Shown here: positions 4,650 to 59,852 of the stretch, piece by piece | How the letters are laid out: every line of letters starts with the position of its first letter | Numbering within the stretch: position 1 is the stretch's first letter | Assembly: GCA_013823945.1 (NCBI GenBank) | Contig: PNMZ01000002.1 | Location: 248,001 to 312,000 of the forward strand | Direction: 5' to 3' | Length of the DNA stretch: 64,000 nt | Source of the DNA: a bacterium | Lineage (GTDB): Bacteria; Armatimonadota; Fimbriimonadia; Fimbriimonadales; Fimbriimonadaceae | The notes under the pieces: model-generated | The model's database searches: none | Told to the model about the DNA's origin: nothing | Seen by the model: only the letters and a program-made list of their open reading frames with translations | Program-made: the position numbers and the translations under genes

Positions 4650-4676
4650 TTAGCACTCTAGTCCCATCTCTGCTAA
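4650..4676. promoter_or_regulatory. CIRCE-like HrcA operator, copy 1 (groESL)
   Basis: The left half TTAGCACTC is a perfect CIRCE half-site. After exactly nine bases comes CTCTGCTAA, which matches six of nine positions of the consensus right half GAGTGCTAA. The total length of 27 bases and its position ~95 bases before groES fit a HrcA-binding operator. Confidence 0.75.
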
Positions 4677-4703: not shown

Positions 4704-4730
4704 TTAGCAAAGGTGCGCGGAGACTGCTAA
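4704..4730. promoter_or_regulatory. CIRCE-like HrcA operator, copy 2 (groESL)
   Basis: A second 27-base element, starting 54 bases after the first. Outer arms TTAGCA and TGCTAA are perfect and correctly spaced. The inner triplets deviate: AAG instead of CTC on the left, and GAC instead of GAG on the right. It lies 40 bases before the groES start, overlapping the likely leader. The pair suggests cooperative HrcA repression. Confidence 0.6.
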
Positions 4731-4770: not shown

Positions 4771-5064
4771 ATGTCAGCCATTCGACCACTTGGAGACAAG
4801 GTTGTTGTGAAGGTTCTTGAGGCAGAAGAAAAGACGGCGGGGGGAATTATCCTGCCGGATTCGGCCAAGAAGAAACCGACTGAAGGCGAAGTAATCGCCG
4901 TGGGTGAGGGTCGCGTGCTGGAAAATGGCAAGCGAAACTCTTTGACCGTGAAGGTTGGGGATCGCGTGATCTTTAGCAAGTACGGTGGAAATGAAGTGAA
5001 TCTCGGCGGAGATGAAGTGACGATTTTGGATGAAGACCAGATCTACGCAGTTGTGACGAAATAA
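4771..5064 (+). CDS. groES: Co-chaperonin GroES
   Basis: A 97-residue 10-kDa chaperonin, the lid of the GroEL folding chamber in the cytoplasm. It shows [21 protein letters not shown]-type N-terminus, the mobile loop [32 protein letters not shown] and a C-terminal [11 protein letters not shown] strand, all standard. Full family length. The ribosome-binding site is AGGAG before ATG 4771. groEL follows 12 bases later, the normal bicistronic arrangement. The two CIRCE-like sites upstream point to HrcA heat-shock control. Confidence 0.98.
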
Positions 5065-55840: not shown

Positions 55841-58417
55841 CTACTTTGAAGTGAAGTTGAAGGCCCCGTCGGAGTAATCCGCGACGATGTGGGAGCCGTC
55901 GTGGACATCGCCGCTGAGGACGCGCATGGCGAGCGGGTTGAGGATTTCTTTTTGGATGGCGCGTTTGAGTGGACGGGCACCGTAGACCGGGTCATATCCG
56001 GCGGTTGCGATTTGGGTTTTTGCGGCATCGGTGAGTTCAAGGGTTATGCGGCGGTCGGCGAGGCGATCTACAAGTCCAGCGAGTTGGATTTCGACGATCT
56101 GCTTGATTTGGGGAACGCCAAGAGCACGGAAAACCACGATGTCATCCAGCCGGTTGATGAACTCGGGGCGGAAGTGGAACCGGAGTTCTTCGATCACTTT
56201 GGATTTGATTTCTTCGAACTTCTCGGCATCGAGGAAGCTGTCGCCGTAGTGGTGGCTTCCGATGTTTGAAGTGAGAATTACGACAGTGTTCTTGAAGTCC
56301 ACGGTTCGGCCTTGACCATCGGTGAGGCGTCCGTCATCCAGGAGCTGAAGTAGGACGTTGAAGACGTCGGGGTGGGCTTTCTCGACTTCATCGAGGAGAA
56401 TGACGCTGTAAGGTCGTCGGCGGACGATTTCGGTGAGTTGGCCGCCTTCTTCGTATCCGACGTATCCCGGAGGGGCACCGATGAGGCGGGCGACGGAATG
56501 CTTCTCGCCATATTCCGACATATCGATTCTGACCATTGCGCGGTCGTCATCGAAGAGGAGTTCGGCAAGGGCTTTGGCAGTTTCGGTTTTTCCGACACCA
56601 GTGGGGCCGAGAAAAAGGAAGCTTCCGATCGGACGGTTGGGGTCGCTGATTCCGGCGCGGTTTCGGCGGATTGCGTCACTGAGAATGGTGAGAGCTTCGT
56701 CTTGGCCGACCACCCGACGGCGGAGCATTTCTTCCATTTGGACGAGCTTTTGGAGCTCGCCTTCCATGAGTTTGGCGACGGGAACGCCCGTCCATCGGGA
56801 GACGATGCTGGCGATGTCTTCTTCGGTGACTTCTTCTTTGAGGAGGGCCGACTCGGCAGTTTTGTTGCCTTCAGCGAGTTGGGCTTCGAGCTTGGGGAGT
56901 TGTCCATGTTGGATTTCGGCGGCGCGGCCCCAATCGGCGTCTCGCTCGGCGGTTTGGAGTTCGGCGCGGAGTTGTTCTATCTGTTCTCTGAGCCCTCGAA
57001 GGGACTCAATCTTATCTTTTTCGGATTGCCACCGGGCTCGCATGGAATCGGCTTGTTCTTTAAGCTCGCTCAGTTTTGCTTCGGTTTCGGTAAGGCGCTG
57101 TTTACTCGCGGAATCAGCCTCTTTTTTGAGGGCTTCTCGGTCAATTTCGAGCTGGCGCATTTGGCGTTCGATGACATCTAGCTCGTGGGGGACAGAGTCT
57201 ATTTCGATTTTGAGTCGGGAAGCGGCTTCGTCGACCAGGTCAATCGCTTTGTCCGGGAGTTTGCGGTCCGTGATGTACCGGTTAGAGAGAGTTGCGGCGG
57301 CGACGATGGCAGAGTCAGTGATGCGGACACCGTGGTGGATTTCGTACCGTTCTTTGAGACCGCGAAGGATGCTGATGGCTTCGCTCACGGTGGGCTCTTC
57401 GACGATGACGGTCTGGAATCGGCGTTCGAGAGCCTTATCTTTTTCAACGTAGAGTCGGTATTCATTGAGGGTGGTGGCCCCGACACAGCGGAGTTCGCCC
57501 CGGGCGAGCATGGGCTTGAGCATGTTGGCGGCGTCCAGGGAGCCTTCGGCTTTGCCTGCGCCGACGAGGGTGTGCATTTCATCGATGAAGAGGATGATTT
57601 GACCGGCGGCTTGCTTGATTTCGTCGAGGACCGCTTTTAGCCGTTCTTCGAATTCGCCCCGGAACTTTGCGCCGGCGACGAGGGCACCCATGTCGAGAGC
57701 GACGACAGACTTTCCTCGTAACCCTTCTGGGACGTCTCCGGCGATGATTCGTTGTGCAAGGCCCTCGGCGACAGCGGTTTTTCCTACGCCAGGTTCACCG
57801 ATGAGGACAGGGTTATTCTTGGTTCGCCGCGAGAGGACCTGGATGACGCGGCGAATTTCTTCGTTGCGACCGATGACAGGGTCGAGTTTGCCTTGGCGAG
57901 CGCGTTCGGTGAGATCAATGCCGTACTTTTCAAGAGCTTGGAGGTTGGACTCGGCGTTAGCGTCGGTGATGCGTCGGCCTTGGCGAATTTCTTCGAGGGC
58001 CTTGCTGAGGCGTTCTTTGGTGGTTCCATTGGCGTTGAGAATTTTTCCGGCTGATCCTTTGTCGTCGGCAAGAGCGAGGAGGAGGTGATCAGACGAAACG
58101 TACTCGTCACCGAGTTTGGAGGCGGCATCGAAGGCGGAGTTGAATGCAGATTGGGTTCGTGAGCCGAGGGTTGCGCCATAGTTGGCGGATCCTGAGACTT
58201 TTGCGGCTTGGTTAAGAGCGTTGTAGAGGTCGGCTTTGATTGTTTTGGGATCTGCCCCCGCTTTTTGGATCAGCGATATTGCGATGCCTTCTGAATCCGC
58301 GAGCAGTCCGTAGAGAAGGTGTTCTGGTTCAATGGATTGCTGTTGGAATTCGGTGGCGGCTTGTTGAGCGGCTTGGAATGCTTCTTGTGCTTTTATTGTG
58401 AGTCGGTCAAATCGCAT
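55841..58417 (-). CDS. clpB: ATP-dependent disaggregase ClpB
   Basis: An ~858-residue Hsp100 disaggregase working with DnaK to rescue aggregated proteins. It has the N-terminal repeat domain ([17 protein letters not shown]), NBD1 ([19 protein letters not shown], Walker [16 protein letters not shown]), the long coiled-coil M domain (~400-530, rich in Glu/Lys/Arg) and NBD2 ([43 protein letters not shown]). The open frame begins at a TTG at 58438, but ATG 58417 gives the conserved N-terminus. A HAIR-like operator (58419-58439) lies directly before the start, predicting HspR control. Two palindromic repeats follow the stop. Confidence 0.98.
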
Positions 58418-58418
58418 A

Positions 58419-58439
58419 CTTGAGTCTCTTATTGTCAAG
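58419..58439. promoter_or_regulatory. HAIR-like HspR operator at the clpB start
   Basis: On the + strand CTTGAGT (58419-58425) is a perfect half-site of the HspR-associated inverted repeat CTTGAGT-N7-ACTCAAG. Exactly seven bases later comes TGTCAAG (58433-58439), matching five of seven consensus positions. It ends one base before the clpB ATG at 58417, so repressor binding would cover the ribosome-binding region or promoter downstream end. Confidence 0.68.
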
Positions 58440-58586
58440 TGACGTGTAAGTAGTAGTGATACGTTTCAGTTTTGGGACTAATTTTTTTGAGGAATTGTGG
58501 CTTGGGTACAGGAATTTTACGGTGATCTACCGACGTTAAATGATGAGTACTGGGCTCGATGAGTGCGGCGGTACACTGAGAATCAG

Positions 58587-59852
58587 ATGGCGGACGAAAA
58601 GCAACCGGAGTATTTGCAATTTGGGGGGATGGCGGTGCCGGAAGGGGTGATGATGCGTTCGCCGAAATATTATGCGGTGGCGTGCCGGGCCCCGAACGGA
58701 GAGATTATTGTTAAGACCGAGCCACTAGAAAAGACTTGGCTAGGGAAATTAGATTTTTTGAAGAAGCCGTTTTTGCGAGGCTCGCTGGCTTTGCTCGACA
58801 CGATGGCATTGGGGATGCGGGCGATGAACTTTGCAAGTTCGGTTGCGCTTGATCCGAAATATGTGGCGGAAGAAGAACGCGAGAAAGTTGAAAAGGAAAA
58901 TGCCGAGCAAGCCAAGGCAACGCCAAAAGAGTATCGGAATATGGCGATTGCGACCGTGGTTTCGGGGTTGATTGCCGCGTTCTTATTCAACCGATGGTCA
59001 CCGATTTTGAGTGGAGCTTCCTTTGATCCGAACACGATGTTGGCGCCGCTTTTGGCGAGTGTTTTGACGGTTTTGCTGTTAATTTTCACCGTGTTCTGGG
59101 GCCCAATCAAAATGGCTCTCAGTACGAACGAGAAACTGGCGATTGGGGTGGCGATTGTCTTCTCGATTGGGTTTGGTTTTGTGGTTTTCAAAGCACTGCC
59201 GGAGAGTGCAGCGGAGTTTGTGACGGGGCACCGACCCAGTGAATTGGCGCAGGCGACTTATTTGGAAGGTGTTTTGACAAACTTTGTAGCGGAGTCTCTC
59301 AAAGTCATTATGTTCATTGGGTATCTGGCGTTGATCCGGCGGATTCCGGCGATTTTGGATACTTTTCGTTACCATGGGGCGGAACATAAAGCGATCAACA
59401 CGATCGAGGCTGAGGAGGAGCTGACGGCGGGCAACTGCATGGCTCAGACCCGGTTGCACCCTCGCTGTGGGACGAACTTTGCGATTATCGTTGTGATCAT
59501 TGGGTTCTTGAGTTCGGTTTGGGTGCCGAGGTATCCGGTGCTTTTTGGTTACGAAGTGACAGGTGCGTTTGCAGTTATTTTGCGTCTGATTCTGGAACTC
59601 CTGATCTTTATGCCTATCATTGCGGGGGTTAGTTACGAGGTGATTCGGGCGGCAGGGAAGATGAAGGATGCGAAGTGGGTCAATATTTTGCTCAAGCCGG
59701 GTTTGGCGACTCAGTTGATCACCACGGAGGAGCCGGAAGAGAAGCATGTTGAAGTCGCGATCCGGAGTTTGCAGGCGGTTTTGACGGCGGAGGAGACGGG
59801 TGAGTGTGAGAATACGGAAGTTGCGGCGGTGGTCAGTCCTCAGCCTGGATAA
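58587..59852 (+). CDS. DUF1385-family membrane protein
   Basis: A ~421-residue polytopic protein. It begins with YLQFGGMAVPEGVMMRSPKYYAVACRAP, the DUF1385 start (variant of GGQAVxEGVMMR), followed by an acidic linker. Several membrane helices lie between ~120 and 375, with the conserved loop RYHGAEHKAINTIEAEEELTAG and HPRCGTNFAIIVVIIG. DUF1385 proteins are predicted metal-dependent enzymes of unknown reaction. ATG 58587 (MADEKQPEYLQF) is taken as the start; the frame opens eight codons upstream at 58563. Divergent from clpB. Confidence 0.86.
   Translation: MADEKQPEYLQFGGMAVPEGVMMRSPKYYAVACRAPNGEIIVKTEPLEKTWLGKLDFLKKPFLRGSLALLDTMALGMRAMNFASSVALDPKYVAEEEREKVEKENAEQAKATPKEYRNMAIATVVSGLIAAFLFNRWSPILSGASFDPNTMLAPLLASVLTVLLLIFTVFWGPIKMALSTNEKLAIGVAIVFSIGFGFVVFKALPESAAEFVTGHRPSELAQATYLEGVLTNFVAESLKVIMFIGYLALIRRIPAILDTFRYHGAEHKAINTIEAEEELTAGNCMAQTRLHPRCGTNFAIIVVIIGFLSSVWVPRYPVLFGYEVTGAFAVILRLILELLIFMPIIAGVSYEVIRAAGKMKDAKWVNILLKPGLATQLITTEEPEEKHVEVAIRSLQAVLTAEETGECENTEVAAVVSPQPG

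Follow-up and report, generated by a model that had tools for sequence, protein, structure and literature searches.

The clpB locus

The window, a 64,000-nucleotide stretch (C2:248001-312000) of the 3.16-Mb assembly G000 from the Fimbriimonadaceae (Armatimonadota), harbors clpB on the reverse strand and two CIRCE-like sites ahead of groES (Table 1). The clpB start bearing the conserved MRFD is the ATG at 58417-58415; a mechanical list of open reading frames places the start at a TTG (58436-58438) within the adjoining inverted repeat, for a product of 865 aa. This repeat, separated from the ATG by one base (58418), reads CTTGACAATAAGAGACTCAAG on the clpB strand and CTTGAGT-CTCTTAT-TGTCAAG on the forward strand. 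In the latter orientation, the left arm agrees with the HAIR consensus CTTGAGT-N7-ACTCAAG (as given in the accessible text of PMC7464140) at 7/7 positions and the right arm at 5/7, giving 12 of 14 arm bases around an N7 spacer. A sequence-only reading of this DNA had described a perfect CTTGAGT half, exact N7 spacing, and a 5/7 second half one base before the clpB ATG, all of which is confirmed in the letters.

On the clpB strand, the region is laid out as GAAAC-N18-CGTCA-CTTGACA-ATAAGAG-ACTCAAG-T-ATG, with the ribosome-binding region putatively placed within the HAIR spacer and right arm. The site is predicted to be a HAIR operator for the HspR repressor of the same genome, with a probability of about 0.92.

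Table 1. Positions of the features discussed, numbered from the first base of the window
Feature	Position	Strand	Basis
clpB, 858 aa	55841..58417	-	TIGR03346, 1355.2 bits (cut-off 1232.1)
HAIR-like predicted HspR operator, CTTGACA-ATAAGAG-ACTCAAG (clpB strand)	58419..58439	-	Consensus match and sister-genome conservation
Proposed ECF-type -10 element CGTCA, abutting HAIR	58440..58444	-	Mean major-base frequency 0.95 in 8 same-genus genomes
Proposed ECF-type -35 element GAAAC, 18 bases from CGTCA	58463..58467	-	Mean major-base frequency 0.90 in 8 same-genus genomes; 17/18 spacing preference
CIRCE-like site 1 upstream of groES	4650..4676	+	3 mismatches of 18
CIRCE-like site 2 upstream of groES	4704..4730	+	4 mismatches of 18

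HspR and HrcA

The search for hspR that the sequence-only reading had called for returns one HspR in the genome above the NCBIfam equivalog cut-off (NF047375, 113.1 bits vs 105). The protein is of the MerR type and matches PF13411. Its sequence matches the HspR of the near relative 'Armatimonadetes bacterium Uphvl-Ar1' (CP021423) at 100% identity and those of Fimbriimonadaceae MAGs at 86-92%, which places the genome in this family. A second MerR protein (L002) was considered and rejected, as its 44.3 bits fall under the HspR cut-off of 105. The hspR gene is located directly downstream of dnaJ, and a HAIR site, CTTAAGTGTAATAGGCTCAAG, lies 44 bases before dnaJ, that is, ahead of hspR's own operon. 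The genome also has a HAIR site at dnaK, where the same reading had proposed to look. Of 61 genomes, 59 (counting the present one) have a match to HspR, a few of these matches being weak or contig-end fragments (G001, G029, and G043).

The genome encodes one HrcA (PF01628, 136.8 bits; cut-off 22.2), whose 215-residue stretch alone scores 111.8 with TIGR00331, below the whole-protein cut-off of 197.2. The CIRCE pattern TTAGCACTC-N9-GAGTGCTAA is found at groESL as the two sites of Table 1, both ahead of the groES start at 4772 and the only ones in the window with at most 4 mismatches. The two CIRCE-like sites claimed earlier are thus real. The accompanying proposal that one genome runs both HrcA and HspR circuits is supported as plausible, since HspR, its HAIR sites at clpB, dnaK, and dnaJ-hspR, and HrcA are all present.

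Conservation of the HAIR sites

For each promoter, the 200-300 bases ahead of the start codon were searched for the best HAIR-like site, which was then compared with 200 shuffles of that promoter; the own genome is part of the counts. The shuffles preserve base content only, the related genomes are not independent of one another, and start codons were chosen by simple expressions rather than curated. The clpB set comprises 49 of the 61 genomes (all except G008, G015, G029, G036, G039, G043, G047, G049, G053, G054, G057, and G059). The start was not found in 7 of 41 loci for dnaK or in 12 of 30 for dnaJ.

At clpB, the best site reaches p<=0.05 in 39 of the 49 promoters read; a lack of conservation in sister species, named beforehand as an outcome that would speak against the operator, is therefore not what is seen. 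Six further promoters (L048, L049, L057, L202, L209, and L223) carry a weaker site at the usual place (p 0.125 to 0.695), and four of the 49 (L046, L062, L205, and L210) have no HAIR-like site. HspR is matched in the genomes of all four (G021 and G052 for L046 and L062, as well as G046 and G042); clpB is therefore not always part of the regulon, which suggests that it was lost from HspR control in these sister genomes.

At dnaK, all 34 promoters have a site at p<=0.05, the best-scoring one in L197 being at an unusual place. At dnaJ-hspR, 16 of 18 promoters do so, and the other two have a weak site at the usual place. The significant dnaJ-hspR sites are located 33-44 bases before the start in 13 cases and elsewhere in three (L083, L086, and L091). 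In the regions upstream of dnaJ (L063-L092), many promoters seem to have a third, TTGAGC-like HAIR half a few bases past the full site, so that two or more HspR dimers may bind at this autoregulated promoter.

Within the own family, dnaK is usually located away from dnaJ-hspR. Several genomes of the order's other families (e.g., G052 and G037) have dnaK and hspR about 1-2 kb from each other on the same contig, an arrangement that fits an operon of the dnaK-dnaJ-hspR type, judged from this distance rather than from the full operon.

Proposed promoter elements upstream of HAIR

The pattern GRAAC-N17/18-YGTY occurs upstream of the HAIR sites in 25 of 48 clpB, 12 of 24 dnaK, and 14 of 18 dnaJ-hspR promoters. 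Other adjacent spacing pairs in the same sets have means of 0.72, 0.28, and 0.44 and maxima of 4, 2, and 1 for clpB, dnaK, and dnaJ, respectively. Before clpB in the 8 same-genus genomes, the GRAAC (0.90) and CGTYA (0.95) blocks are conserved, and the spacer between them (0.56) is not (mean major-base frequency). GRAAC-N17-CGTT can be rewritten as GRAACN-N17-GTT, the form of the Mycobacterium tuberculosis SigH consensus GGAAYR-N17-GTT (PMC4803200, accessible text). The genome's own promoters deviate from that consensus: clpB has GAAAC-N18-CGTC, and dnaK has GCAAC in place of GRAAC. The pairing of an ECF-type promoter with the HspR operator is given even to slightly better than even odds.

At clpB, HAIR directly follows the proposed -10 element, so the predicted start point falls within the left arm, where HspR would cover it. 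By eye, the proposed -10 of several dnaJ promoters lies inside HAIR. Many sister promoters also have TATAAT-like stretches near the two elements, and sigma-A may therefore act on them as well.

Candidate sigma factors

There are 26 matches to sigma region 2 in the genome. Among the nine of these proteins that were scanned with the SigH/SigR model TIGR02947, none reaches the cut-off of 251.55. Several of these nine ECF-type proteins resemble SigH/SigE: L252 scores 136.9 bits, the SigH-like protein near dnaJ-hspR (L222:5312-5875) 134.0, and three others 106 to 118. An attempt to pin the ECF role on a single sigma factor failed, as L222:5312-5875 does not outscore L252.

Judged by coordinates, the sigma gene at L222:5312-5875 and hspR are no more than about 3 kb apart in G000, G003, G004, G005, G006, and G007, and in G002 its counterpart is on the contig with dnaJ; no such nearness is seen in other genera. 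Position is the sole feature that makes this candidate attractive, and this holds for the genus alone. The segment divergent to dnaJ-hspR (L222:4362-6601, G000:C4) holds an HDOD-domain gene, the ECF sigma gene (best NCBIfam match SigH_actino, below cut-off), and a gene whose anti-sigma matches are only very weak. The gene that follows this nearest candidate has no Pfam match.

Chance expectation and alternative explanations

The clpB site is the sole one in the window with at most 2 mismatches to the HAIR consensus. First-order Markov copies of the window contain a mean of 0.22 such sites, and 9 of the 60 copies have one or more, so the letters by themselves are not decisive, and the site is judged real because of its position at the start codon and its conservation in sister genomes. 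Across the genome, 35 distinct sites have at most 2 mismatches to CTTGASTN7ASTCAAG. Among the 24 examined as loci, 19 are inside ATG-initiated open reading frames of at least 100 aa and five are outside them, namely those at clpB, dnaK, and dnaJ-hspR as well as L009 and L012, which have no evident heat-shock connection. The HAIR-pattern total in the genome is no higher than that of the reversed-pattern control (360 vs 646 per strand with 3 or fewer mismatches); thus, the evidence is the placement and conservation of the sites, not their number. The genome's other 1-mismatch site (C2:613303, L007) is inside an ltrA coding frame and was set aside as chance. In most of 14 genomes scanned, sites with at most 1 mismatch do not exceed the control, and none of the 6 extra places checked at that threshold is a convincing further target. 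One sister genome has a perfect HAIR-like palindrome (L313:1304-1324, G007:C342) 59 bases before a gene that resembles, by eye, homoserine O-acetyltransferase; it may be chance or a terminator.

These expectations and totals speak for a functionless near-palindrome before clpB. Against this, most sister genomes have the repeat at the corresponding position ahead of clpB, its arms preserved and the upstream spacer variable, and like sites stand at dnaK and dnaJ-hspR. Conservation at three HspR-type target operons in effect refutes a chance origin, which is accordingly rated as very improbable. A role at the RNA level, with the repeat forming a hairpin or RNA thermometer across the clpB start of the mRNA, is given an equally slight chance. 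The structure predicted for 46 nt does not improve on that of shuffled sequences (z 0.11), the minimum-energy structure leaves the HAIR arms unpaired with each other, and the arms at clpB can pair at only 5/7 positions, although the repeat does span the ribosome-binding region and stops a single base short of the ATG. Should the ECF promoter prove correct, transcription would moreover begin inside the left arm. The fold prediction thus lends the hairpin no support.

A more serious, if still doubtful, alternative keeps HspR on HAIR and assigns transcription to an ordinary sigma-A promoter, with the ECF motif unused in this species. The TATAAT-like stretches of the sister promoters are in its favor, as is the genome-wide count of the ECF pattern in G000, which is not enriched (49 vs 65 for the reversed control) when N16-17 is allowed; the own clpB promoter is beyond the reach of that pattern because its spacing is N18. 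Against it, the 17/18 spacing preference is sharp at three promoter sets, the 8 same-genus genomes retain the GAAAC and CGTYA blocks, and no sigma-70-like promoter was found in 58400-58620.

Proposed mechanism

With the clpB site read as an HspR operator, repression would proceed as follows. In unstressed cells, HspR would occupy the HAIR sites at clpB, dnaK, and dnaJ-hspR and block transcription, probably with DnaK as co-repressor, as in known cases. At clpB, the bound repressor would cover both the presumed start point and the ribosome-binding region. Upon heat shock, HspR would release the DNA, allowing the promoters to be read, probably in part by a SigH/SigE-type ECF sigma factor recognizing GRAAC-N17/18-YGTY. 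HspR would also repress its own operon, and groESL would be under separate HrcA/CIRCE control. Whether the Fimbriimonadales have such a three-layer circuit, in which a SigH-like ECF factor drives clpB, dnaK, and dnaJ-hspR, HspR covers the same promoters, and HrcA controls groESL, is an evenly balanced proposition.

Comparison with known systems

The sequence-only reading had placed HspR control mainly in Actinobacteria and a few other phyla. The actinobacterial part stands, with HspR at clpB described in PMC6102357, PMC8223512, and PMC4803200 (here and below, as far as the accessible portions of the cited articles go). This view is qualified by established cases outside that phylum: Campylobacter jejuni, where HspR overlaps the Pclp core promoter (PMC7464140), and Deinococcus, which enters here as the title of a reference cited in PMC6102357. 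Because HspR is known at clpB in Actinobacteria and at Campylobacter Pclp, the switch belongs to a type already described. No treatment of HspR in Armatimonadota was found in a literature search with subscription journals mostly outside it; the accessible text of PMC7448276 names HspR and the phylum in unrelated passages. The present analysis extends a well-described heat-shock switch to this little-studied phylum with clear comparative support and predicts a compact regulon of clpB, dnaK, and dnaJ-hspR.

In Streptomyces, HspR recognizes CTTGAGT-N7-ACTCAAG, acts on the dnaK operon and on clpB, and is autoregulated (PMC6102357 and PMC8223512). The predicted regulon shares the consensus, both targets, and the autoregulation. 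In contrast to Streptomyces, dnaK and dnaJ-hspR form separate operons in the own family, and a HAIR precedes each of the two. The role of DnaK as HspR co-repressor is described from Actinobacteria (PMC8223512).

C. jejuni likewise harbors HspR and HrcA in one genome, with CIRCE at groESL (PMC7464140). However, no joint HspR-HrcA promoter is evident here, HAIR being found at clpB, dnaK, and dnaJ-hspR and CIRCE at groESL.

The M. tuberculosis clpB has a SigH promoter overlapped by an HspR site (PMC4803200), an arrangement that the proposed ECF-type promoter and HAIR of the present locus would match. In contrast to M. tuberculosis, the candidate sigma factors fall well short of the SigH_actino cut-off. 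What deserves pursuit is the possible SigH-like composite promoter in Armatimonadota. The possible pairing raises the question of whether combining a repressor with a stress sigma factor at a single promoter is an old design. If the three-layer circuit is true, the mycobacterial SigH-HspR composite promoter would exist in a distant phylum and would be either ancient or have arisen twice.
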